A stretch of DNA of 64,000 nucleotides from Scytonema sp. RU_4_4 (GTDB lineage: Bacteria > Cyanobacteriota > Cyanobacteriia > Cyanobacteriales > Nostocaceae), in the NCBI GenBank assembly GCA_012031965.1, contig JAAUSC010000002.1, forward strand, positions 1-64,000, given 5' to 3'. The number at the start of each line of letters is the position of its first letter. Positions within the stretch are counted from its first letter, which is position 1. Below the pieces are notes generated by a model. That model saw only the letters and a program-made list of their open reading frames with translations. It was not told where the DNA came from and searched no databases. Made by a program: the position numbers and the translations under genes. Of this stretch, positions 42,475 to 57,806 are shown piece by piece.

Positions 42475-42512
42475 AGTGCTGAGTGCTGACTCCTGACTCA
42501 GCACTCAGCACT
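42475..42512. terminator. Shared hairpin terminator of the two converging genes
   Basis: AGTGCTGAGTGCTGA at 42475-42489 pairs exactly with 42498-42512, an eight-base loop between. The right arm contains the stop codon of trmFO, whose last codons are part of the stem. T-rich bases follow on the plus strand (GTTTATG). Confidence 0.7.
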
Positions 42513-43817
42513 GTTTATGAATTTTTGTAAGTCAGCCAAAGCGCGATCGCGATAACGTCCGTAACGCTCTTGTTTATTTTTGATTTTCTCACCCAGTTCT
42601 GGTAAAATCCCAAAATTAGGAGGCATCGGTTGAAAATGCTTAGGCGAAGCGGAACTGATAAATTCAAACAGCGACCCCATCATCGTTGTCTTGGGTAGAG
42701 TTAAAGGTTCTTTCCCCAAAGCCAGCCGCGCTGCATTGGTTCCCGCTAACCAACCACCTGCTGCGGCTGCGGTATATCCTTCGGTTCCTATTAACTGTCC
42801 AGCACCTAGCAATGTCGGACGCTTGAGAAATTGCAAACTCGGCTGCATCAACACAGGTGCGTTGATAAAGGTGTTGCGGTGCATCACTCCCAACCGCACG
42901 AACTCAGCATTTTCCAAACTAGGAATCATTTGGAAAATACGCTTTTGCTCACCCCAACGCAGATTTGTTTGGAATCCTACCATATTCCACAGTTGACCAG
43001 CTTTGTCTTCTTGTCGCAACTGTATCACCGCATAGGGGCGTTCTCCAGTTCGACTATCCGATAACCCGACTGGCTTAAGGGGACCATAGCGCATTGTGTC
43101 TTCCCCTCGCCGTGCGAGTTCCTCTATCGGTAGACAGGCTTCAAAAAATTTTGCCGTTTCCCGTTCAAAATCTTTTAATTCCACTTGTTCGGCTGCACAA
43201 AGTTCTTGCCAAAACTGCAAGTACTGCTCTTTATTCATGGGGCAGTTTAAATATGCAGCTTCGCCCTTGTCGTAGCGAGAGGCAAGAAAAGCAATATCAC
43301 GGTTAATTGATTCTCCCACAATAATTGGACTTGCGGCATCGAAAAAGCTGAGGTATTCCATCCCTGTGAAACGGCGTAAATCTTCCGCTAAATCAGGACT
43401 GGTTAAAGGACCAGTTGCCAAAACAACAATTCCTTCCGGGATAACACTGACTTCATCTCGATGCAGTTCAATCAAGGGATGTCGAGCGAGAGTTTCCGTC
43501 AAGTCCTGACTAAATTGTCCTCTATCGACTGCGAGCGCTCCACCAGCAGGAACTGAGTGTTCATCAGCTTTTGAAATCACAATAGAATTGAGTTGTCGCA
43601 GTTCTTCATGCAAAAGACCAGCAGCGCGATCGCTTGCCATTGCCCCAAAAGAATTGCTACACACCAACTCCGCCAAATGTTCCGTATGATGTGCGCCACT
43701 GAAGCGATTTGGGCGCATTTCCCAAAGAATCACTGACACTCCAAGAGAAGCTATTTGCCAAGCTGCTTCTGTCCCAGCGAGTCCACCTCCAATAACATGA
43801 ATTGTTTGTTTTTCCAT
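42498..43817 (-). CDS. trmFO: Methylenetetrahydrofolate-tRNA-(uracil-5-)-methyltransferase
   Basis: A 439-residue flavoenzyme that makes the T54 (m5U) of the tRNA T-loop using methylene-THF. The start [22 protein letters not shown] is the FAD-binding motif, and [22 protein letters not shown] and [18 protein letters not shown] are GidA/TrmFO-family hallmarks. Length and domain order are normal. ATG 43817 is clear. Confidence 0.95.
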
Positions 43818-43984: not shown

Positions 43985-44461
43985 TTAAAACTCTTTGGTT
44001 ACAAGAACTTTGCTATGACTCTTTACAGCGATAACTCCCTGTTCATTTGTGATCTTTCCTTTGAGGTCTAAAATTTCTCCATTGAGACTGTCTTTATACT
44101 GTGTTCCAACGACCTCCCATTCCATATCAATTAACTCTCTTGCTTTAATCGCTTTAAGGAATTGGATAGAAAAATCCAAACCAACAATTGCATAATTTTG
44201 AGAGAAGTGTTGAGCCGCCAAACCCATCATCAAAGAACTAATGTGTGGACCACAGACAATGATACTGCCAAACCGAGTTTTCCGAGCATATTCGGCATCG
44301 TGATGAAGTAAATTAGGGTCTCCGACTAAATGAGCAAATTGGCTGATTTCTATTTCATTCAATCTCATTTGACGGACAATTTTCTCCCCTACTGAAACAG
44401 GTGTCATAAGCAATTCAAAATGGACTGCGGAGCGCTGCGCTAACAAAATTCGCTCATTCAA
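43985..44461 (-). CDS. MaoC-like acyl dehydratase / hot-dog hydratase
   Basis: A 141-158 residue single hot-dog protein with the hydratase motif ISQFAHLVGDPNLLHHDAEYARKTRFGSIIVCGPH, including the catalytic Asp and His seen in R-specific enoyl-CoA hydratases. It may hydrate enoyl-ACP/CoA species or bind another acyl thioester. Internal ATG 44410 (MTPVSVGEK) may be the start. Confidence 0.75.
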   Translation of the reverse strand: MNERILLAQRSAVHFELLMTPVSVGEKIVRQMRLNEIEISQFAHLVGDPNLLHHDAEYARKTRFGSIIVCGPHISSLMMGLAAQHFSQNYAIVGLDFSIQFLKAIKARELIDMEWEVVGTQYKDSLNGEILDLKGKITNEQGVIAVKSHSKVLVTKEF

Positions 44462-44844
44462 AAAAAATCAACGAGCGTGCTGGCAAACATCTTGTCTGTA
44501 GACTGTGTGCAAGCTTATTGGTATGACGGCTTAAAACTAACAACAACATTCTGAACCTTTTCCGTATCTTGCTGCAACTGTTTGGTCATGTTTATCCGAA
44601 TACGGTTGCTGTTATCCTGACATAACCCCTACTGATGGAGACACCTCGGATAAAGACGTACTAAGTTGAATGTTTAAAAAAACCAGTCAATCAAAATCAG
44701 TATAAAAGCTGTCTTTGCTATACTCGTCTAGATCTCAAAATTTATTTAAGGCACTTACCAATAGTACAACAATCTGAAATTGAGTCCAGCGGTTTGAACA
44801 GTCAATATTCTCACTGCTAGTGGTATCTAGGACAAGCAAAAATC
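44462..44844. other. Long upstream region of the defence island
   Basis: About 380 bases with no supported gene. It presumably holds the island promoter; I could not place -10/-35 boxes convincingly. Confidence 0.5.
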
Positions 44845-47800
44845 ATGCAAATCGACCAACTCAAGCCCAATGTAATCGTTACAGGTTCAATCTTCAGCGA
44901 ACCCGTACAAGTATTGATAGTCACCCCAATGGGCGCTTCAGTCAAACTCATCGGTCAAGGACTCAACACCAATCAAGTTCATCAACTCATTCTCAACGCT
45001 TCTCAAATAGCACAACTGCAAGCAACTCCAGACAAAGAACCTTTTGATGGTGACTCGCTGCATTTTCGCTTGGGTGTCGAAGCTTTGCGCCTCGGTCTAG
45101 CCTACGAATATGATCCCTTTTTTGCCCTCGCCATTGCTCGTGTTGACCCTCTCCCTCACCAACTTGAAGCGGTATACAACTATTTTCTTAAACAACCTCG
45201 TGTCCGTTTTTTACTCGCTGATGACCCCGGTGCTGGTAAAACTATCATGGCAGGGTTGCTGCTGAAAGAACTTAAAGTCCGAGGACTGGTCAAGCGTACA
45301 CTGATTATTACCCCTGCCAACCTAACATTTCAATGGCAACGGGAACTTAAAGACAAATTTCGGGAAGAGTTTGAGGTCATTCGCGGCGATGTGCTGCGAG
45401 CTAATTATGGTTCTAACCCTTGGAAAGAAAAACATCAGGTTGTCACCTCAGTGTCTTGGGTTTCCCGTATTGAAGATGCTAAAGATAGTTTGTTAAGAAG
45501 TAACTGGGATTTAGTTATTGTGGACGAGGCGCATAAGATGAGCGCCTACAGTTCAGATAATAAAACTTTGGCTTACAAACTGGGTGAAGAACTTTCAAAA
45601 CACACCGACCACTACTTATTAATGACAGCAACGCCCCATAAAGGCGACCCAAAAAATTTCTGTTTATTCCTCGAACTTTTAGACCGTGATGTATACGGAG
45701 ATGTCAAAAGTTTAGAGGAAGCAATGCTGCGCAACAACGCCCCATTTTATCTGCGTCGCACTAAAGAAGCCCTTGTTACTTTCCCTGAACCAGAAAGAGG
45801 TATTGTTAAAAAGCTATTCACTAACCGCAAAGTCGAAACAATTGATTTTCAAATTGATGCGGATGAGTTTGACTTTTACGACGACTTAACAACTTATGTT
45901 GATGACCAGTCTATCAAAGCTTCTAGTGATGACTCAGCGCGTGGTAGAGCTTTGGGTTTTACAATGGCAATGTTGCAACGTCGTTTCGCCTCCAGTGTTT
46001 ATGCAGTGCGGCGTAGTTTGGAGCGAATGCGAGACAAACGTCAAAGGATATTGGAAGACCCACAGGCTTATCGCCAAGAGCAGATTAATAAGAAAATACC
46101 AGAGGATTTTGATGAACTGACTGAAGAAGAACAGCAAAAATTCTGGGAGATTTAGAAGGAGTTGTCGCCTCAATTGACCCCATAGCGCTTAAACAAGAAA
46201 TACTGCAATTAAATAAATTAATCATCCAAGCTAAAAATTTAGAAGAGCGAGAAATTGAATCTAAGTTGGTGAGACTTAAGGAAGTTATTACCCAAAAAGG
46301 AATATTCCAAGATAAGAATATGAGACTGCTCATTTTTACTGAGCACAAAGATACCCTGGATTACTTGGTGGGTAAGTTACGAGACTGGAAATTGTCTGTA
46401 ACACAGATTCACGGGGGAATGAAAATTGGTGACAGGGACACCTCCAATACTCGCATATATTCTGAACGGGAATTTCGGGAAGATTGTCAGGTGTTGGTCG
46501 CCACGGAAGCTGCGGGGGAAGGTATAAATCTGCAATTTTGCTGGTTCATGATTAACTATGATATTCCGTGGAATCCCGTGCGCTTGGAACAACGGATGGG
46601 ACGCATCCATCGTTACGGACAGGATAAAGATTGTTTAATTTTTAACTTTGTGTCTACTAATACTCGTGAAGGGCGGGTACTGTGGAAGTTATTTGAGCGC
46701 ATCCGCGCCATTGAGGTAGACCTCGACCCGGAGAGAACGGGTAAAGTTTTTAACGTTTTGGGTGATATCTTTCCTGCCAATCAACTAGAGCGGATGATTA
46801 GGGATATGTACGCCCACAATTTGACTGAGGATGTGATTAAGAACCGCATCGTCGAGCAGGTTGATACTGAGCGCTTTCGGCGGATTAGCGATTCGGCGTT
46901 GGAAGGGTTGGCGAAGCGCGAATTGAATTTAGCACCAATTGTAGGTAAAGCGGCTGAGGCGAAAGAACGACGTTTGGTACCAGAAGTTATTGAGGACTTT
47001 TTTATTCAAGCGGCTCCTATTGCGGGAATTCATCCCAAGGAAAATGCTAAAGGTCAAAAAGTTTACCGAATTGGACGAGTTCCACGTACATTGTGGCAGA
47101 TAGGCGATCGCCTGGAATCCCGTTTTGGCAAGTTGGGGCATGAGTACAAAAAGATTACGTTTGATAAAAATATCTTGACAAATGAACCAACACTGGAATG
47201 GGTAACACCAGGACACCCGTTATTTGAGTGTGTGCGGGATGATGTCCTGGCGCGGGTACAGGAAGACTTGCGGCGAGGTGCTGTATTTTACGATTTGTAT
47301 CGTCATCAGCCTGCGAGATTGGATGTATTCAGTGCGGGGATTTCTGATGGACGCGGGAATAAGCTGCACGAGCGTTTATATGTGGTACAGACTGAGTTGG
47401 ATGGTAGGATGACGGTGCGCCAGCCGACGCTGTTTTTAGATTTAGTGCTGGCGTGGGGAAGTGCAGAATTAGTCGCCACCTTACCCGATGATACTGCCTT
47501 ACCCAACCGCGACCAAGTGGAACAAGCCTTAATTGAACAAGAATTAAATCGCTTTCTGGTCGAGATTCGCACTCAGCGCCAGAAGGAAGTCGAGACAATT
47601 TCTCAGCACATGGAATTAGTCTCAACACGATTATTGATAAGGTGCAGTGTCAGTTTGCTGAGTTGATAGAACAAAAAGAATCTGGTTCCAAAGAAGCGGG
47701 GTTGGATGGACGCATCAAGCAGTCAGAAGACCGTTTGTTTGAGTTGAATGCACGCTTAGAACAGCGACGGGAGGAATTGCAGCAGGAAAGTAGCTGTACC

Positions 47801-48268
47801 ATCACGGATATTCGCCATCACGGACGTGCTTGGGTTTTACCGCACCCAGAACGCACTTTGCCAGAAATTGCGCGGATGGTTAGCAATGAGGAGATTGAAC
47901 GCATTGCAGTTGAGGCGGTGATTGCATATGAAGAAGCTAGGGGATGGAAGGTGGTGAGTGTGGAGAAAGAGAACCGGGGTTTTGACCTGATTTCACGTCA
48001 ACCCCATCCTGAAGATCCAGAGACAGCTATAGCCGTGCGGTTTATTGAAGTTAAGGGACGATCTACAGTCGGTGAGGTGGCGCTGACAACTAACGAGTAT
48101 AAAACAGCCGAAAGATTAAAACAGGATTATTGGTTGTACGTTGTGTTTAATTGCGCTTCTACCCCAGAAGTTCATCCTATAGAAGACCCAGTACGATTAG
48201 GATGGGAACCGTTGGTGAAGATTGAGCATTATCACGTTTCCGCCCAAAAAATTTTAACAGCACAATAG
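44845..48268 (+). CDS. SNF2-like helicase with C-terminal DUF3883 domain, two apparent frameshifts
   Basis: Three pieces read as one protein of about 1140 residues. Piece one has Walker A DDPGAGKT (near residue 134), VIVDEAHKMS, and MTATPHKGDP. Piece two has LLIFTEHKDTLDYLV, LVATEAAGEGINLQFC and RLEQRMGRIHRYGQ, the second RecA lobe. Piece three is a DUF3883 domain with RGWKVVSVEKENRGFDLIS and FIEVKGRST. Frame breaks at the five-A run 46136-46140 and at AA 47614-47615 are each repaired by one A. Such helicases resemble the DrmD type of anti-phage systems. Confidence 0.8.
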
Positions 48269-48279
48269 GTTGTATATTT

Positions 48280-48873
48280 ATGCAAGTACAAACACAAAAA
48301 CGCTACTACACACCTGAAGAATATTTAGAACTTGAGGAAAAAGCAGAATATAAAAGCGAATACCGCGATGGAGAAATCGTTCCAATGACTGGAGGAACTA
48401 CAAATCATAATGAAATTGCACTGAATTTAGCAGCTTCCTTAAAATTTGCAGTGAAAGGGCAAAATTATCGAGTTTATATTGGTGACGTACGTTTATGGAT
48501 ACCCCGTTATCGTCAACATACTTATCCGGATGTGATGGTAATTCAAGGACAACCTGTTTATACGGGAACAAATACAACTACTGTCATGAATCCTTTGCTG
48601 ATAGCAGAAGTTTTATCTAAATCGACTAAGAATTACGACCAAGGTGATAAGTTTCTCTATTATCGGTCTATCCCTGAATTTAAAGAATATATTTTAATCG
48701 ACCAATATCACTATCATGTTATGCAGTATGTCAAAACTGCAGAAGGTCAATGGTTATTTACTGAAATTGAAGGTGAATCTGCAACTTTATCACTTCAAAC
48801 GGCTGATTTTAAAATTCTACTGAGCGACCTTTACGAGCAAGTAGATTTTACTGTTAGCAGTGAAGAAGATTAA
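48280..48873 (+). CDS. Uma2-family (DUF820) putative restriction endonuclease
   Basis: A 197-residue protein with the Uma2 pattern: YYTPEEYLELEEKAEYKSEYRDGEIVPMTGG at the start, HTYPDVMVI and NPLLIAEVLSKST, which carry the D...E-x-(L/K) nuclease core of the PD-(D/E)xK fold. Cyanobacteria have many Uma2 genes, often near mobile or defence DNA, so its part in this island may be incidental. It starts 11 bases after the helicase stop and ends 36 before the methylase. Confidence 0.85.
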   Translation: MQVQTQKRYYTPEEYLELEEKAEYKSEYRDGEIVPMTGGTTNHNEIALNLAASLKFAVKGQNYRVYIGDVRLWIPRYRQHTYPDVMVIQGQPVYTGTNTTTVMNPLLIAEVLSKSTKNYDQGDKFLYYRSIPEFKEYILIDQYHYHVMQYVKTAEGQWLFTEIEGESATLSLQTADFKILLSDLYEQVDFTVSSEED

Positions 48874-48909
48874 TTGTCTTAATATTATTAACACATAATT
48901 ATTAATGTA

Positions 48910-51897
48910 ATGCCGACGACACAATACCCCAAACGTATCATCGAGGTTGACTTACCCATCAAGCGAATATCTACCCATGCACGGCGAGAAAAATCCATCC
49001 GTCACGGGCATATTTCAACGCTACATATATGGTGGGCGAGGCGACCTTTGGCGGCGTGTCGGGCGGTGATTTGTGGTGCACTCTGGTTTGACCCTGCTGA
49101 TCCATTGTGTCCAGAGGCGTTTGTCGAAACAGCAAAAACGCTGATGTTAAATTGGGCAAAGAATCATCCAGAAAAAGCTAGTGCTGATTCTTTTAATCGC
49201 TTAACAGCTATTAATAAAAATCCTCAATTATTAGATGACCCAGTAGAACTTCGCAAGACTCTGCTGGATTTTATTGCTGACTTTGCCAACTGGGATAATT
49301 CAACTGATGCAGATTATTTAGAAACCAGCCGCACTTTAACACAAACTGCTCATGAAGCTTTAGGGGGAATTCCAGGAACCAAACCGTTAGTTGTTGACCC
49401 CTTTGCTGGTGGGGGTTCCATACCTTTAGAAGCGTTGCGGGTGGGTGCGGATGCGTTTGCTTCTGACTTAAATCCTGTGGCGGTTCTGTTGAATAAAGTG
49501 GTGTTGGAATATATTCCTAAATATGGGCAACAGTTAGCGGATGAAGTGCGCAAGTGGGGACAGTGGGTTAAGGAGGAAGCAGAAAAGGAATTAGGAGAAT
49601 TTTATCCTAAAGATCCAGATGGGGCGATACCTATTGCTTATCTTTGGGCAAGAACGATTACTTGTGAGGGTCCTGGATGTGGTGCGGAAGTACCTCTCAT
49701 TAAGTCTCTTTGGCTAGCTAAAACAAAAAATAGTTCTGTTGCTTTACAAATATTGCCTTGCAGTGTAACAAAGAAAATTAATTTTAATATTATTTATAAT
49801 GGTGTAAGCAGTTTAGTCCAAAGCGGAACTATTAAAAACTGTTCTGCAACTTGTCCAATATGTGGATATACAACTCCTGCTAATTCAGTTAGAAGGCAGT
49901 TAAAAGAACGCCAAGGAGGAACTCAAGATGTCAGACTTTTTGCGGTAGTAACTATACAAGAAGGACGAAAAGGGCGTTTATACCGTTTACCAATAGAGCG
50001 TGATATAGAAGTAGTTAATAAGGCGAGAACTGAGTTAGAAAAACGTAAAAACATACATAATAAATCACTCAGTTTAATCCCAAATGAGCCGACTCCACTG
50101 GGAGGTGGAAGTGGAGCAGGACGAGCATTTTCGCAACGCAATTATGGAATGAATCATTTCTATGATATTTTTACCTCCCGGCAATGTTTAGCTCTAGTAA
50201 CACTGACAAATTTGATAAATAAGGCTGGAGAAAAAATTGAGAAAGAATATAGTAGTGAATTTGGAGCCTCAGTACAGACTTGCTTATCGCTAATACTGGA
50301 TAAAGTAGCAGAAAGACTAACATCCTTAAGCAGGTATGACACTGGTGCTAAGATGAGTGGTATTATTGGAATTTATGCCGGTCAAAGATTACCAATAGTG
50401 TGGGATTTTGGTGAAGGAAATCCTTTGCTAGACCGTTCAAGTGGATGGGAACAGTGTTTGTATTGGTTCCTTAACGTTTTATCGAATATCAGTATCATCA
50501 ACTCTCATCAAGGAAATGTAGCACAAACATCTGGAACAAAGCATCCACTTCCAGACGATGGAGCGAACGCTTTTGTTACTGACCCACCTTATTATGATGC
50601 TGTACCATATGCAGATTTATCAGATTTCTTTTATGTGTGGTTAAAAAGATCATTACCTAAGTCTGTAAATATTTCGTTTTCAGATGAATTAACTCCGAAA
50701 CAAGATGAGTGCATAGTTGATGAAGTAAAAGGGAAAAATCGTCAATACTTTGAACAAACAATGTCACAAGTAATGACAGAGGGTAGGCGTATTCTGTCAA
50801 CAGAAGGTATTGGCATAGTTGTGTTTGCCCATAAATCTACATCTGGCTGGGAAGCACAATTACAAGCAATGGTAGATACGGGCTGGACAATTACAGGTTC
50901 ATGGGCAATTGATACAGAAATGGGGACAAGACTAAGAGCGATGAATTCAGCTGCTCTTGCCTCCTCTGTCCACCTCGTCTGTCGCCCCCGCCCCAATAAC
51001 CCTAACAACATCGGCGACTGGCGCGATGTCCTCCAAGAACTCCCCCAACGTATCCACGAATGGATGCCTCGCCTCGCCGCAGAAGGTGTAGTTGGTGCTG
51101 ATGCCATCTTCGCTTGCCTTGGTCCGGCTTTAGAAATTTTCTCCCGCTACTCCCGCGTTGAAAAAGCCAGTGGCGAACAAGTCACCCTCAAAGAATACCT
51201 CGAATACGTCTGGGCAGCAGTCTCCAAAGAAGCCCTTGGCATGATTTTCTCTGGTGCAGATGCCACAGGCTTTGAAGAAGATGCGCGCCTCACCGCCATG
51301 TGGCTGTGGACACTTTCCACTGGTAGTATTGATAACACCAGCGACAGTAACGAAACGGAAGCCGAGGACGAAGATGACGAAGAAACCAGCAGTAAATCCA
51401 GCAAAACTACTGGTTACGTTCTAGAATTTGATGCTGCCCGGAAAATCGCCCAAGGACTCGGCGCACATTTAGAAAATCTCAACCGCCTAGTAGAAGTTAA
51501 AGGCGACAAAGCGCGACTTTTACCTGTATCAGAGCGCACACACTACCTTTTTGGTAAAGACGAAGCCCAAGCACCTACCAAACGTAAAAAGAAAGATGTC
51601 AAGCAACTAAGCTTATTTGATATCGCTGGTAGCATAGAAGACGAGGACAATGATTGGGGTGAAAAAACAGTCCCCCCACTAGGAAACACTGTATTAGACC
51701 GCATTCACCAAAGCATGATTTTATTTGCCGCCGGACGCAGCGAAGCCCTCAAACGCTTCTTAGTAGAAGAAGGTGCTGGTACTGACCAACGCTTTTGGCG
51801 TTTGGCACAGGCACTTTCAGCATTGTATCCTAACGGCACAGATGAAAAACGCTGGGTTGATGGTGTTTTAGCTAGAAAGAAAGGACTTGGATTTTAA
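48910..51897 (+). CDS. DUF1156 DNA methylase of the defence island
   Basis: A 995-residue protein. The N-terminal DUF1156 block (KRIIEVDLPIKRISTHARREKS, HIWWARRPLAACRAV) is followed by SAM motif I VVDPFAGGGSIPLEALRVGADAFASDLNP, a zinc-ribbon-like pair CEGPGCG / CPICGYTTP, and methylase motif IV TDPPYYDAVPYADL. Such enzymes presumably methylate adenine or cytosine amino groups in host DNA to mark self. The last A of its stop codon is shared with the next start. Confidence 0.87.
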   Translation: MPTTQYPKRIIEVDLPIKRISTHARREKSIRHGHISTLHIWWARRPLAACRAVICGALWFDPADPLCPEAFVETAKTLMLNWAKNHPEKASADSFNRLTAINKNPQLLDDPVELRKTLLDFIADFANWDNSTDADYLETSRTLTQTAHEALGGIPGTKPLVVDPFAGGGSIPLEALRVGADAFASDLNPVAVLLNKVVLEYIPKYGQQLADEVRKWGQWVKEEAEKELGEFYPKDPDGAIPIAYLWARTITCEGPGCGAEVPLIKSLWLAKTKNSSVALQILPCSVTKKINFNIIYNGVSSLVQSGTIKNCSATCPICGYTTPANSVRRQLKERQGGTQDVRLFAVVTIQEGRKGRLYRLPIERDIEVVNKARTELEKRKNIHNKSLSLIPNEPTPLGGGSGAGRAFSQRNYGMNHFYDIFTSRQCLALVTLTNLINKAGEKIEKEYSSEFGASVQTCLSLILDKVAERLTSLSRYDTGAKMSGIIGIYAGQRLPIVWDFGEGNPLLDRSSGWEQCLYWFLNVLSNISIINSHQGNVAQTSGTKHPLPDDGANAFVTDPPYYDAVPYADLSDFFYVWLKRSLPKSVNISFSDELTPKQDECIVDEVKGKNRQYFEQTMSQVMTEGRRILSTEGIGIVVFAHKSTSGWEAQLQAMVDTGWTITGSWAIDTEMGTRLRAMNSAALASSVHLVCRPRPNNPNNIGDWRDVLQELPQRIHEWMPRLAAEGVVGADAIFACLGPALEIFSRYSRVEKASGEQVTLKEYLEYVWAAVSKEALGMIFSGADATGFEEDARLTAMWLWTLSTGSIDNTSDSNETEAEDEDDEETSSKSSKTTGYVLEFDAARKIAQGLGAHLENLNRLVEVKGDKARLLPVSERTHYLFGKDEAQAPTKRKKKDVKQLSLFDIAGSIEDEDNDWGEKTVPPLGNTVLDRIHQSMILFAAGRSEALKRFLVEEGAGTDQRFWRLAQALSALYPNGTDEKRWVDGVLARKKGLGF

Positions 51898-53006
51898 TGA
51901 AAGACCTATTTGAACAGCACAAAAATTTGACGCAAGCTGCTCAAGAAGTGCTGAAAAATTCTTATATCCATCAAATGGCTAATTCAGCTGAATTGTTGCG
52001 TAAAAGCGGTCTACTACAAAATTCAGCTATAGATGCTATCCGAGGAACAAATTCAGCTTTTGAAACATTGCGTGAAAGTAGTCTGCTACAAAATTCACGT
52101 ATAAGTTTACTGAAATCTCCGGTAATAGATGATAGTCGTTTGAAACGAGTTTATAAAGATTTTCAACAAGTTAACTTATTAGCTAATCAATCAAATTTAG
52201 CAAGACGCTTACTGGAACCTTCTAGAGTTTACACATTTTTTTTGGAAAGCACAATTCAACGTATTTCAGAAGCCGACAATCAGAAAATAGCAAGAGCTTT
52301 ACAAACATCTTTACGTCTAGCAGAAGTACAGTTACTGACTACAACGGAAGTTTTATCATCCATCATTACTGCGCCAACAGATGATGAGGTATCTGATACC
52401 AGACCACTGGACTTGCCAATTATTCAACAGGATGAATTAATAGCTGCTGTTGAGTTAGAAGATATAGAAGATGAAATAGCTTTAATTGAACTATCTCCGG
52501 CTGCTAACGCCTCTGCTTTATCCAAACATATTCTATATTTAATAACACAATGTAACGAAGTTGTGAAAGTTGGAGACAAACCAGAAATATTTAAACCAAC
52601 TAATAAACTTCTTGAAGTATTTGTTGACTTACCTTGGCTACTTCCGGAAAGTAAGCGAACATTTGGGAATTTTATAGATTGTCTGTATTTTGTATTTTAT
52701 GAAGGCGCTGGTAAAGATAATCTGCGTTTTTTAAAAGAGCATGGGGGTGTGCTTGAGCCTGCTGATTGTGATTTGATTTGGTGTATCAAACACTTGAGAA
52801 ACAAGTGGCTGCGTCACGATGCAGATCATGGCAAAGAAGCTGATATCAGAAAATCTTGGAAAGATGTATCAGCAAAGCTTAGCTGGCTTGGCTTACAACA
52901 TGCCCCTATTAGTCCAGAACATTTCCGCTATTTACATTGTCGTCTTCTCCAAGAAGCAGAAGTTTTCTTGCAGAAGATTCTTGAAAAGTTAATAAAAAGT
53001 GAATAA
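51897..53006 (+). CDS. Unrecognised 369-residue protein with HEPN-like motif
   Basis: I recognise no family. The first 75 residues contain an imperfect repeat (LRKSGLLQNSAID / LRESSLLQNSRIS), helical and possibly coiled coil. An acidic, loop-like middle follows (near residues 160-200). The helical C-terminal third has LIWCIKHLRNKWLRHDADHG, with Arg301, Asn302 and His307, fitting the R-(N/D/H)-x4-6-H signature of HEPN ribonucleases. The start shares one base with the methylase stop (TAATG), so translation is probably coupled. It lies between the methylase and ATPase genes. Confidence 0.7.
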   Translation: MKDLFEQHKNLTQAAQEVLKNSYIHQMANSAELLRKSGLLQNSAIDAIRGTNSAFETLRESSLLQNSRISLLKSPVIDDSRLKRVYKDFQQVNLLANQSNLARRLLEPSRVYTFFLESTIQRISEADNQKIARALQTSLRLAEVQLLTTTEVLSSIITAPTDDEVSDTRPLDLPIIQQDELIAAVELEDIEDEIALIELSPAANASALSKHILYLITQCNEVVKVGDKPEIFKPTNKLLEVFVDLPWLLPESKRTFGNFIDCLYFVFYEGAGKDNLRFLKEHGGVLEPADCDLIWCIKHLRNKWLRHDADHGKEADIRKSWKDVSAKLSWLGLQHAPISPEHFRYLHCRLLQEAEVFLQKILEKLIKSE

Positions 53007-53016
53007 GGGGACACTT

Positions 53017-55877
53017 ATGGCAGCAATCAAACCTTGGTATAAAATCGACGGCTTAACCCCCCGTGAAGACTTGCGGGAAGGGAAACCCCTTGATGCTTCT
53101 GAGTTCGCTGTCCACCTCGACAAAGTGCGAGACAAAACCGCCCCTTCTGATTATAAAGAGCCAGAACGTTTTTTGACCGTACTTATCTCACTAAATATTT
53201 AACCGACCTTGCAGCCCAAGTGGTGCGCCGTCTTTCAGGCGAGAAAACGGAAACTTCGGCAGTGTTCAATCTCGCTACCCAGTTCGGTGGCGGTAAAACT
53301 CACGCCCTCACTTTGCTTTATCACTTAGCAAAACATGGTGCAGCGGCTAACAACTGGACAGGGGTCCAGAAAATACTGCAAAAAGCGGGAATTTCATCAA
53401 TACCAGAGGCTGCGATCGCTGTCTTTGTCGGTACAGAATTTGATTCTATTCAGGGACGCGGTGGTGACGACGGTACACCTCTACGCAAAACACCGTGGGG
53501 AGAAATCGCTTACCAGTTAGGTGGTGCAGAAGCTTTAGCTGTGCTTGCTGAACATGAAGCTCAATTTATTGAACCCAAAGGCGATGTTATCAGAAAATTT
53601 TTCCCCAAGGATAAACCCTGCCTGATATTAATGGATGAAATTATTAATTATGCTAGTACCTATCGCCGTAAGGGTTTTAATAACTACCTATACAACTTTA
53701 TTCAAGCACTATCTGAAACAGCGAGAAGTTTAGATAATGTTGTGTTAGTGGTTTCTATTCCTGCTTCCGAAATGGAATATACCACGGAGGATGAAGCGGA
53801 TGAGCAACGTTTCAAAAAAATGCTTGATCGCGTTGGCAAAGCGATAATTATGTCCGCCGAGTCAGAAACATCCGAAATTATTCGTCGCCGCTTGTTTGAA
53901 TGGGAACCTGGTGCTGTCACCGCAGATGGCAGAATTATCTTACCCAAAGATGCAATTAACACCTGCAATGAATACGCTGACTGGGTAGTTGAACATCGAC
54001 AGCAGCTTCCAAGTTGGTTTCCCCTAGACAATGCCCGTGAAGCTTTTTACACCACATATCCTTTTCACCCGACAGTATTATCTGTGTTTGAGCGCAAGTG
54101 GCAAGCCTTACCACGCTTCCAACGCACTAGAGGAGTGCTGCGACTTCTGGCACTTTGGGTATCAAATGCTTATCAGCAGGGTACCATCCGCGCACACCGT
54201 GATGCTTTAATTAGTTTAGGCACAGCATCACTGGATGACCCCCAATTTCGAGCAGCCGTGTTTGAACAACTAGGCGAAACTCGTTTGGAAGGTGCAGTGA
54301 CAACAGATATCTGCGGCAAAAGAGATTCCCATGCAGTGCGTCTGGATGCTGAAGCTGTGGACGTCATTAAAAAAGCACGGCTGCACCGCAAAGTCACAAC
54401 AACGATATTTTTTGAATCTAACGGTGGCTGTACGCGCACGGAAGCCACTATCCCTGAAATTCGGCTAGCAGTAGCGGAACCGTCCTTGGATATTGGGAAT
54501 GTGGAAACCGTTTTGGAAACACTTTCAACTGACTGCTATTATCTCTCGATTGAGAAAAACAAATACCGCTTTAGCTTGTCGCCCAACCTAAATAAGATTT
54601 TGGCAGATCGCCGTGCTAACGTCCAAGCAGCCAGAATGACCGAACGAGTCAAAGCTGAAATTCAGAAAGTTTTTGTCACAAGTCTTGGAATTCAACTCAT
54701 TTATTTTCCCGAAAATTCCAGTACTGTTCCCAATCGAGCAGTGCTAACAATAGCTATACTAGCGCCTGAACATTCCATGCAAGACAGCGAAACTGTAAAA
54801 TTTGTGGAATCGATGACGCGGGAGTATGGCACATCAGACCGTACTTTTAAGAGTGCCATAATTTGGGCAGTTGCTGACTCTGATGCCCAGCTACGAGAGG
54901 AAGCACGTAAGCTACTAGCATGGGAAGACATCCGCGACGAAGAACGCGAACGACTCGACGACTCCCAGAAGCGCCAGTTGGATGAGAACCTGAAAAAAGC
55001 AGAACGCGACTTAAAAGAATGTGTTTGGCGTTCTTACAAAAATATTGCACTGCTAGGTAAAGATAACAAAATCCGCACTGTAGACTTGGGTATGGTCACA
55101 TCTAGCATGGCACGTACTATGGTTGAGTTAATTATCAACCGCTTACGCCAGGATGGGGATGTTGAAAATAGTATCAGTCCTCGCTTTATTGTACGCAACT
55201 GGTCGCCCGCATTTACAGAATGGAGTACCAAGGCTGTCCACGATGCTTTTTTCGCCTCACCGCTGTTTCCCCGGTTGTTGAATGGGGATGGGGTGAAGGA
55301 GGCGATCGCCCGTGGTGTGAGAGATGGTATCCTCGCCTATGTTGGTAAAACTAGCACTACACACTACGAACCGTTCCAATATCAATGTACCATCAGTTCA
55401 GCCGATATAGAAATCTCTGACGATGTATTTATCATCACCCAGGAGACTGCCGAAGCTTACAAAAAAGCCGAATCAGAAAGTGTTGCTGACACGCAAACCC
55501 CATCATCCCAGACAATTAACGGGGAAACAAACACTAGCACTCCTGCTACCACAGTCGGCGTGACGACTTCTACAACTCATGTTGTCAGAGACGTTACCAC
55601 TCCCTATGTCACAAACACTGCTACTCAACCAACAGAAATCACTCCCTCATCTGCATCAGCGCAAGTGCTGAAGTGGAGTGGCGCAATTACACCCCAGAAG
55701 TGGATGAACTTCTATACAAGGATTCTTTCCAAATTTGCTACCAATAAAGATTTGAAATTGACTATAAAAGTATCCGTTTCCGTTGAAGGGGATGTTTCTA
55801 CTCAGAAGATTGAGGAAACTAAAGTGGCACTGCAAGAATTAGGATTGGACGGTAATATTGAGACGGATATAGATTGA
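53017..55877 (+). CDS. DUF499 ATPase of the defence island, one apparent frameshift
   Basis: ATG 53017 opens an N-terminal segment IKPWYKIDGLTPREDLREG, which runs off-frame at the six-T run 53169-53174; one added T reads on (FFDRTYLTKYLTDLAAQVV) into the main frame at 53220. Together about 953 residues. Domains visible: P-loop GGGKTHAL, Walker B CLILMDEIINYAS, and a Thr/Ser-rich linker near the C-terminus before a last helical part. DUF499 proteins are AAA-type ATPases that occur with DUF1156 methylases in predicted anti-phage loci. Confidence 0.8.
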
Positions 55878-56009
55878 GATTCAATTAGCTTCATCGGGCA
55901 GAAGCCTCTTCACGCTCACTTACTCAAAAGTGCTGAAAGTGCAAAATCGGGTGCTTTTGTTGCGGGAGCGAAAAACGCGCCCGTGAGAGGCTCTCAACAT
56001 ACAATTCTC

Positions 56010-56341
56010 CTACTGAGCTTTTATTTTCCCCCAACTCATCTCACGCTTACGTAACTTCACTAAAGCTTGTACCTTCCTTTTGAATTGTTCAAAATCTTCT
56101 GCACTGACATCTGTCTTTTGCCATGCTTCGCGTTGCATCAAGCGTCCACACCAATCATGTAGCTTGGGGTAATCATTAAGATTAATATCCAATCTGGGTA
56201 ATGAAGGCACAACTGTTCCTGCAACAATATCTGCAAGAGTGAGTTGCTCGCTCCCAAAGTAAGGACTATCTCCCAATATTTGTGTGAAAAATTGCAGTAC
56301 TTTATCTATATGTTGCTTTGCTTGTAACTGGAGTTTAGACT
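56010..56341 (-). pseudogene. Glutathione S-transferase C-terminal fragment
   Basis: An open frame without start encodes the C-terminal alpha-helical part of a GST (KVLQFFTQILGDSPYF, LADIVAGTVVPSLPRLDINL, LHDWCGRLMQREAW). Upstream the frame meets a stop at about 56342, where the transposase element begins. The N-terminal thioredoxin-fold half is absent, so the element or a deletion removed it. Confidence 0.8.
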
Positions 56342-57806
56342 AACGCATGACAAAATGACTCAAAGGTATTGAGTTAATGAATTACACAGCTCAAAATATA
56401 AAAGTCAACGGCTCAACTTGACAGTGACTGTTGTTTTTTTGTTCGAGTTGTACTTTTTTTGACAATAGGACAACGGATTTTACGAAGCCTAGGTTGTCCT
56501 GTAGACCACCCAGGGGATTTTCCACGGGATTTAGGAGGATGTGATGGTGTGCCAATCGCCGCTAAAACTCCTCCCATCGACTGAGCAACTCTTCCAGGTG
56601 TTAAATTGGTGACTGACTTCTGCCAAGGAAGGGGGCGATCGTTCACAAGTTTACGAGCCAACCATAGTTGCCAAGTGAGTAATGGCATAAGATCACTCCA
56701 TCGCTCACACTGCTCTCTTGTGCCTAGTTTCGGCAGTGTCCAGTGAAGACGTTGTTTGGCGAATCGATACCAGTGGTCAACGGCAAAGCGACGCAGATAG
56801 TGACGCCAGATTTGGCATAATTCGGGTATTCCCTCACCGACCCAAACCAACCATAAGGGTTTCGCTTTTCCCATGAGCGCTTTGTCAAGTCGCTCAACTT
56901 GGATCACAAGCATATTGGTCTTGGCAGACTGCTGGAAATGGAGATTACACCACATACGGAGGCACAGTTGCCCCATCTTTGGGTCGAGTACTTCTAACAT
57001 TTGGTCAGGTGTCCACCATGTTGTTGGGTCGTTGAGTTTAAACTTGTCCCCGTGGACACGAGGACGACCAATACCCGTATATGGTGGTGGCGCACCGTAG
57101 AGTAGGCGATTCGACCTTAAGCGCATTAATTTATCGGCAGCAATGTCGGCGGTCTGTTTAATAAAGCTGGCACAGCCGTATTCAGCATCCCACAAAGATA
57201 AGGGACGTGTAGACAGATTTTGGCACACAAGCCTCAGTTGTGCTGCGGCTTTCTCAATGGGGTTTTCAAAACTGGTGATTCGCTCATGTAATAGAGGTAA
57301 TGCCCAACTGCCCTCTGTTTCTGGAATTACTGCTATGGTACTGTAGCCTTGTCCCACGGTCACGGGTTTTGCTCCTGACATTGGTTGGGCTTAATGCTCG
57401 TAGGTACGCTCTTTTAATGTCACCGCATCAAGTCTTGACCAAGCTGTATGATCTCCTGCTAACACGATTTGTTCTGCTTGGGGAAGTTGTTTGATATACA
57501 ACTTCATCAATTCTTTTCGCGGTGGATTGCCATCTTCTAAAGCTTCATAAATACTAGACCACTGTCGTCGAAATACTGGAGATACGGAGAGTTCCACGAA
57601 CGAGTAAACACTGCGTGTAACTAACACTGCATCCATCAGATCAAACAAGGCATCTTTGGCTTTACCCAAGATGGTATAAACACAGGAGCGAAATTGTTTA
57701 AGCTGATCAATAGTTATCATGGTCAAGCTGAATTTTTTCTCTAAATTTCAGCATCGACCATAAAGTGGTCAGTTTAACATAGCTGACCGCTTTTTCTTTT
57801 CCGGGG
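56342..57806 (-). mobile_element. Insertion sequence with DDE transposase (NF041680-like), ends uncertain
   Basis: A gap of about 1.4 kb between the GST fragment and the TetR-type operator holds one transposase gene and nothing else. I could not see clear terminal inverted repeats or target duplications; the left limit is set by the loss of GST coding at 56341, the right one is a guess. Confidence 0.6.
56413..57726 (-). pseudogene. DDE transposase broken by an in-frame stop
   Basis: Two parts are in the same frame: 111 residues from ATG 57726 (IDQLKQFRSCVYTILG, ... VLAGDHTAWSRLDAVTLKERTYEH) and 322 residues further (SGAKPVTVGQGYS, LWDAEYGCASFIKQTADI, RFAVDHWYRFAKQRLHWTLP). A single TAA (at 57391-57393) separates them; a CAA to TAA change would explain it. 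The catalytic-Asp region and the second-half DDE elements fit a 430-residue transposase of the IS701/NF041680 kind. The element is therefore probably inactive unless served in trans. Confidence 0.75.

Follow-up and report, generated by a model that had tools for sequence, protein, structure and literature searches.

The stretch of DNA analysed here, referred to below as the window, comprises 64,000 nucleotides from the cyanobacterium Scytonema sp. RU_4_4 (bases 1-64000 of a contig of 87,765 bp, in a genome assembly of 7.3 Mb and 400 contigs). Positions 44845 to 55877 of its forward strand hold a single compact operon that encodes an Hma system, consisting of the helicase HmaA, the DNA methylase HmaB and the DUF499 ATPase HmaC, together with two further genes: a Uma2 family gene and a gene for a protein of 369 aa, which we call g. 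An earlier reading based on the letters alone (the sequence-only reading) had described a helicase, a methylase, an ATPase, Uma2 and a 369-residue gene in one strand-uniform block, and this content, order, strand and coordinates hold. The genes are tightly packed: HmaA is followed after 11 bp by Uma2 and after a further 36 bp by HmaB, the ATG of g shares one base with the HmaB stop codon, and HmaC begins 10 bp after g. The features are as follows.

44845..48268, + strand: HmaA, an SNF2 helicase with a C-terminal NOV_C/DUF3883 domain, in three open reading frames (ORFs); identified with PADLOC and Pfam
48280..48873, + strand: Uma2 family gene in the variable slot between HmaA and HmaB; Pfam describes the family as a putative restriction endonuclease
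48910..51897, + strand: HmaB, a DUF1156 adenine-type DNA methylase, open frame of 995 aa
49660..50559, + strand: middle of HmaB (about residues 251-550), probable target-recognition region, strongly diverged even from the copy in G061, a genome of the same genus
51897..53006, + strand: gene g, 369 aa, variable helical N-terminus and conserved C-terminal domain, unnamed
52797..52832, + strand: codons of the g motif R301-N-x4-H307-D-x2-H311-G312, conserved among g relatives
53017..55877, + strand: HmaC, a DUF499 AAA+ ATPase, with a frame break near 53169 and its main ORF at 53220-55877

The assignment to Hma, already proposed in the sequence-only reading, was borne out by hmmscan with the PADLOC models, in which HmaA, HmaB and HmaC were all found together. 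The HmaA model matched each of three ORFs (E = 3.9e-98, 6.5e-67 and 8.7e-18), the HmaB model matched with E = 1.7e-119, and the HmaC model matched both the main ORF (1e-104) and a separate N-terminal ORF (4.7e-6). Pfam domains in the block were SNF2-rel_dom, Helicase_C, NOV_C (1.7e-21, in the third HmaA piece, whose translation contains EVK), Uma2 (1.3e-32), DUF1156 (PF06634, 5.8e-21) and DUF499 (2.2e-18). We take NOV_C to be the renamed DUF3883, and it may correspond to the PD-(D/E)XK nuclease domain of the helicases of type-1 BREX-related (BR) systems.

The sequence-only reading overlooked that two of the three core genes are split. HmaA consists of three ORFs in three frames (44845-46155, 46266-47666 and 47642-48268), broken near 46136 and 47614. 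HmaC begins at 53017 in one frame and has its main ORF in another, the break lying near 53169. HmaB, Uma2 and g have open frames. At every break the length differs by a single base from both G061 and a second, more distant relative, G130, which are in frame at these places; for this reason programmed frameshifting was rejected as the cause, with no direct test. HmaA, HmaB and HmaC are all whole in G130. The copy in G061, 93-95% identical at the DNA level, carries its own, different lesions: its HmaA is split into 785 and 348 aa and its HmaB has an internal loss. Because HmaA and HmaC are each interrupted, the Hma copy of the window is probably inactive or recently inactivated. The ratios of nonsynonymous to synonymous divergence (dN/dS) from G061 are low (0.04-0.05 for the HmaA pieces, 0.12 for HmaC), so the inactivation, if real, would be recent.

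One possibility is that the three breaks are assembly or sequencing errors and that the system is intact and functional, which would be compatible with any reading of g. All three breaks sit in short single-nucleotide runs of a fragmented assembly, and the dN/dS values of 0.04-0.12 point to selection until very recently. However, the breaks fall within 6.3 kb of HmaA and HmaC, the G061 copy is likewise damaged in HmaA and HmaB, in a different way, and no comparable flanking gene of the window is split (the GST gene on the right is truncated). As a control, we compared stretches of the same genome with proteins of two same-genus genomes by tblastn (22 gene-place pairs, 6868 aa, at least 75% identity). 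Of the 22 pairs, one had small frame shifts; these are two in number and lie in an incomplete second copy at the end of a contig. Two pairs with a common query had one in-frame stop each. A recheck without the identity limit added one internally deleted pair whose ends are in different frames (L127); in L129 the start matched weakly in the same frame, and L128 gave only a short piece. We consider assembly error rather unlikely.

The block moves as a unit, a point that the sequence-only reading had put forward for checking. The limits of the block and its left neighbors are listed here.

44762..55887, no strand: extent of the mobile block, with agreement between the window and G061 inside and difference outside
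42498..43817, - strand: GIDA-family (trmFO-like) flank gene, conserved in same-genus genomes
43985..44461, - strand: MaoC-domain gene, left neighbor of the block

The match between the window and G061 extends from about 44762 to about 55887 and the sequences diverge outside it. The window's flanking genes sit on other contigs in G061; the same block thus occupies a different site there. G011 and G111 carry the left (GIDA-family) and right (GST) flank genes within a few kb of each other, separated by other genes and not by an Hma block. No integrase was found among the annotated genes of the block (PADLOC, Pfam and NCBIfam scans). Synonymous divergence (dS) from G061 is far lower for Uma2 (0.08) than for HmaA (0.26-0.29) and HmaC (0.16), which suggests a mosaic history. 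At the right edge of the island (56010-57726) the GST gene is reduced to its C-terminal part beside transposase-like fragments (DDE_5, E = 0.006).

Within HmaB, divergence is concentrated in the middle. Compared with G061 in 50-residue steps, identity is 92-98% over residues 1-250 and then 50, 62, 46 and 30% over residues 251-450, after which G061 HmaB lacks the following stretch. Against G130 the ends are 76-98% identical and the middle (251-550) 40-66%. By eye, the translation shows the motifs DPFAGGGS and DPPY on either side of the diverged part. Such a pattern would arise if a target-recognition region had been exchanged or had changed rapidly, and the middle of HmaB is probably such a region. 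Published BR methylases carry a variable target-recognition insert, according to the accessible part of PMC12839542.

To compare gene neighborhoods we used HmaC, whose family had matches in 62 of 192 genomes of the same taxonomic family (own genome counted). The comparison covers 17 loci, namely G130, the window and 15 of 40 fetched contexts, chosen for an HmaC that shares 61-88% identity with the G130 protein; the remaining 25 contexts belong to other HmaC lineages and lie outside the table, and further HmaC matches were never fetched. Immediately before HmaC, seven of the 17 loci have PIN-type toxin-antitoxin genes (G027, G034, G077, G120, G152, G161 and G061, the last with the UPF0175 gene kept and what by eye looks like the remnant of a PIN gene). 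Four have an unnamed gene of about 190 aa (G064, G099, G181, G190; G161 carries it further up), two a 518-aa AAA-like gene, and two, the window and G130, have g; the others show an opposite-strand ORF and a contig end. The names PIN, DUF3368, UPF0175 and AAA were tested on one or two members each and extended to the others by blastp. The gap between HmaA and HmaB is also varied, with Uma2 in the window, G061 and G081, two Fic genes in G130, an AAA_15/OLD-like gene in G181, a gene without a Pfam match that is NYN-nuclease-like by eye in G099, and small paired genes without a Pfam match in G027; it is empty in G064 and G190. Two positions, HmaA-HmaB and just before HmaC, therefore take interchangeable accessory genes. 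The whole operon of G130 reads HmaA-Fic-Fic-HmaB-g-HmaC. In G050 and G047 an open g adjoins HmaB remnants, and in G047 a UPF0175 gene comes after g; a single ancestral order HmaB-g-TA-HmaC (TA, toxin-antitoxin) with different losses would fit.

Several further features of these loci were observed. In the HmaC clade (L051, L055, L057, L058, L059), loci with PIN-type toxin-antitoxin genes before HmaC have a truncated or missing HmaB in five of six assessable cases and a whole HmaC, and HmaB is whole in all four loci with the 190-aa gene; HmaC integrity is biased here, the loci having been found through HmaC. The proteins of the ~190-aa family (L048:14802-15386, L060:5068-5652 and others) have an ELEN motif that is invariant in five aligned members, and the one member tested had no Pfam or PADLOC match. 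In G081 (L050:2501-11809) the 518-aa AAA-like gene and HmaC are tandemly duplicated and one HmaC copy is shortened.

Neither PADLOC (E up to 0.1) nor Pfam (E up to 1) gave a match for the g protein, and its sole NCBIfam match was unrelated (E = 0.15). Its N-terminus is variable among relatives, partly repetitive and helical. Its C-terminal domain, unnamed in all three libraries, keeps the motif R-x4/5-H-D-x2-H-G down to 27% identity, all nine rows of one alignment (A6) and all 11 rows of another (A3) having the R and the H. Numbered within the domain, invariant residues among nine divergent rows are F20, K21, T23, D49, Y52, Y56, E57, G58, G60, R89, H95, D96, H99, G100 and K107, among others. 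For the C-terminal part, dN/dS was 0.21-0.31 against the Hma-associated copies of G130, G047 and G050, and 0.13 against G190, where dS is saturated.

Relatives of g are few and scattered (counts include the own genome or the search center). They occur in 7 of 192 genomes of the taxonomic family, or 10 of 217 with a wider profile, and beyond it a phylum sample had them in 3 of 386 genomes, the class of G535 in 1 of 369, the phylum of G536 in 3 of 395 and the class of G979 in 1 of 8. Of the ten copies in the family, those of the window and G130 are in Hma loci, those of G050 and G047 adjoin Hma remnants, and the remaining six are away from Hma. In four of these six (G190, G1315, G125, G1323) g adjoins an EF-G gene that is followed by a TPR gene; in G167 it adjoins that TPR gene, and in G137 it is a 30-residue remnant whose other flank is the same as in G167, by eye. 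Long ORFs remain in G190, G1315 and G125, and the copies of G167 and G1323 are truncated. Several of the copies outside Hma have RHH and/or PIN genes beside them (names tested in G125 only).

Further afield, g keeps company with other restriction-like genes. In Methylobacter psychrophilus the genes before it are PglX, which scores as a type IIG enzyme too, an AbiLi/OLD-like pair, PglZ and BrxL, a BrxA/B/C stretch lying outside the sequence examined. In G994 (E = 6e-30) it lies 123 bp after a type IIG restriction-modification gene, in G316 it is near a gene with weak PD-(D/E)XK/NERD matches, and in a metagenome-assembled genome (MAG) of Deltaproteobacteria a TIR-domain gene follows about 0.6 kb downstream. 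In G979 the g domain (E = 1.4e-11) is fused C-terminally to GmrSD_N (E = 4.8e-20). The g C-terminal domain is thus a rare, widely scattered and unnamed family that recurs with several restriction-like systems, and in this sense it is a new part. We rejected carriage of g by phages or plasmids on the ground that it was not found in viral contigs, plasmids (queried also with the G979 domain) or phages. Two further details were noted: the G979 unit (L139:6329-11073) continues with an AAA_11/AAA_12 helicase that has a PLD domain, with a HepT-like gene nearby, and the Methylobacter g carries in its N-terminal part (L103:9700-9900) an inverted-repeat insert that by eye resembles a miniature inverted-repeat transposable element.

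We tentatively propose, at somewhat short of an even chance, that this domain may be an undescribed effector family that is passed among Hma/BR, BREX and type IIG restriction-modification systems, that can replace the nuclease half of GmrSD, and that would act, through an R...HD..HG active site of its own, as a backup weapon common to them. Several observations count against a tie between g and Hma. Just before HmaC, 15 of the 17 tabulated loci show no g (in two of these 15 the place is that of the opposite-strand ORF or the contig end), and we accordingly rejected g as a fixed fourth Hma gene. The expectation that the 369-residue gene sits at the same position elsewhere held for one intact relative (G130), and g stands beside two remnants, but it failed for those 15 loci. 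Six genomes of the family have g away from Hma, with three of the copies truncated or remnants, and no HmaC match was found in the g-bearing genomes of Methylobacter and the Deltaproteobacteria MAG.

It could be speculated from this that g is an unrelated passenger without a role in Hma, and that the gaps around HmaB gather toxin-antitoxin, Fic and Uma2 genes and insertion sequences through operon decay or tolerance of insertion; the same gaps are indeed occupied by PIN-type toxin-antitoxin, Fic, OLD-like and AAA genes. This is unlikely, however, as g fits exactly between the HmaB stop, with a 1-base overlap, and the HmaC start, its frame is kept in G050 and G047 despite the decayed Hma genes beside it, and the g domain is found again with BREX genes, type IIG restriction-modification and GmrSD_N. 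Another possibility is that g is a protein of antitoxin, adaptor or regulator type, one that modulates the ATPase or the methylase for instance, rather than an effector. The variable, partly repetitive and helical N-terminus, the all-helical predicted fold and the lack of a proven catalytic family would suit such a role. On the other hand, the polar residues that stay invariant down to 27% identity (R, H, D, H, E, K and D) look catalytic, and in G979 the g domain occupies the place of the GmrSD nuclease domain; we regard a non-effector role as quite unlikely.

If g is an effector, its chemistry may be that of a HEPN RNase. The motif of the HEPN superfamily is R-x4-6-H, and g carries R-N-x4-H at the end of a helix. 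A second structural model of g is all-helical (pLDDT 84, pTM 0.85). Genomic context points the same way: HmaC of the window's clade begins at the ATPase region, without an N-terminal HEPN, and seven aligned HmaC proteins from other Hma loci of the family have an N-terminal domain, which was HEPN_Swt1 in all three tested (Pfam, best E = 3.1e-42). With HEPN_Swt1 at the front of other HmaC proteins, a separate RN-x4-H gene just before a HEPN-less HmaC fits a split effector. In the accessible part of PMC12839542, fused HEPN domains are counted in 1370 of 2446 type-1 BR taxa, and free HEPN genes are among the auxiliary effectors.

Profile and fold searches gave this identity no support. The g protein of the window had no Pfam HEPN match, and among 11 members there was one weak match to HEPN_DZIP3 (E = 0.082), ranking below the irrelevant TAL_FSA (0.039). 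Alignment to HEPN_Swt1 with hhalign placed the motifs in register with a score of 15.9, which is not significant, at least ten of 100 column shuffles scoring higher (the top ten, 16.8-22.8); a wider set of g sequences gave 17.3 (E = 0.07), also not significant and obtained without shuffles. The residue after the motif R varies in the most distant member. Against the PDB, the A3 profile matched nothing, and the A6 profile gave two matches, each to DnaJ, with E around 1. Foldseek found nothing at E <= 0.001 with the good model (pLDDT 84), nor did a fold search with a first, poor model (pLDDT 65), and VIA-align of the good model returned common helical proteins, designed ones among them, with a Z of at most 7.1. 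With motif, helical model and context on one side and these searches on the other, we consider the HEPN identity of g about even; that g is an accessory effector of some kind we hold more probable.

Taken together, the locus is a mobile Hma island of the type-1 BR kind with interchangeable accessory genes, in which g may serve as a backup effector, most likely of the HEPN-RNase type, a reading for which our confidence and our doubt are of equal weight. Under this reading HmaB would methylate host DNA by means of its exchangeable target-recognition region, the AAA+ protein HmaC would assemble a sensing complex on unmodified invader DNA, and HmaA, with its helicase and C-terminal nuclease-like domain, would destroy that DNA. 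The HmaA-HmaB and pre-HmaC slots host the interchangeable accessory genes, Uma2 and g in the window. With its variable N-terminus g would sense the condition of the complex, and its conserved R...HD..HG domain would act on RNA upon failure of primary restriction. We infer the order of events by analogy with the sensing-modifying-restricting scheme proposed in PMC12839542, as far as its accessible part goes, and the RNase chemistry and the coupling of g to HmaC are likewise conjectural. If g is a backup effector, it would offer a direct handle on the switch of BREX-like/Hma systems from restriction to abortive defense. The two exchangeable accessory positions and the diverged methylase middle of cyanobacterial Hma loci lead to predictions that are testable in intact relatives.

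With respect to known systems, the relation to DISARM parts suggested in the sequence-only reading stands only as a distant one through the SNF2 helicase. Membership was rejected: the DrmD models scored below the HmaA model and the NCBIfam cut-offs, DrmA matched only via the helicase, and neither DrmB nor DrmC was among the matches listed for the block proteins (PADLOC, NCBIfam; the top 25 for each of the two larger HmaA pieces). The block also differs from type-2 BR, which has a DUF3780 gene and an HKD nuclease on the helicase, with no DUF3780 and no PLD domain in its proteins (Pfam), PLD-helicase models matching only through the helicase core, and from type-3 BR, with no PglZ among its eight proteins (no separate iSTAND test was made). 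The g domain resembles part of the GmrSD type IV restriction enzymes in being fused to GmrSD_N in G979, where the C-terminal part is the g domain and no Pfam HNH match was found at E up to 0.5; the accessible part of PMC12839542 describes an HNH domain in GmrSD. Like the HEPN_Swt1-DUF499 fusion (PF18731), g holds an effector position at the front of HmaC and has its motif at a helix end (R-N-x3-H in the fusion, R-N-x4-H in g); it differs in having no significant profile similarity, in being a separate gene and in the extra D-x2-H-G after the H.

Hma was named from 1,638 loci (PMC8565338, accessible part). The block has the same adjacent helicase, methylase and DUF499 ATPase, matches the PADLOC models for all three, and differs by the two extra genes within the operon and by the interruption of HmaA and HmaC; three intact frames are found in G130 and not in the window. 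HmaB is an m5C (5-methylcytosine) methylase in the accessible part of PMC8565338 and an adenine methylase in the PADLOC-DB model, and the DPPY of the window suggests adenine. PMC12839542, to the extent of its accessible part, redefines Hma loci as DUF499-centered BR systems, and the block is Hma, equivalent to the published type-1 BR. Shared features are the DUF499 ATPase, the N6-adenine methyltransferase with a variable insert and an N-terminal DUF1156 (PF06634, E = 5.8e-21; DPPY and DPF motifs), the SNF2 helicase with an extra C-terminal domain and auxiliary nucleases in or adjoining the locus. In 79% of the taxa counted there, the helicase ends in a PD-(D/E)XK nuclease, of which the NOV_C domain of the window may be the counterpart. 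Type-1 BR is further characterized by a TUDOR domain at the N-terminus of the helicase and an RRM at the C-terminus of the DUF499 protein. The optional N-terminal HEPN of the DUF499 protein is absent from the window's HmaC clade, and a separate unnamed gene precedes HmaC.

The sequence-only reading had suggested an undescribed variant system. This does not hold for the three-gene core, already known from PMC8565338 and PMC12839542, or for accessory effectors as a class, since PD-(D/E)XK, HEPN, PIN and OLD effectors are already listed in the accessible part of the latter. Uma2 and Fic do not appear in its main text, and among the papers listed in our literature searches we found no description of g or of the cyanobacterial Hma slots, the supplementary tables of PMC12839542, which may contain g, lying outside the comparison. 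Within these sources, the block is a type-1 BR system whose g family looks undescribed.

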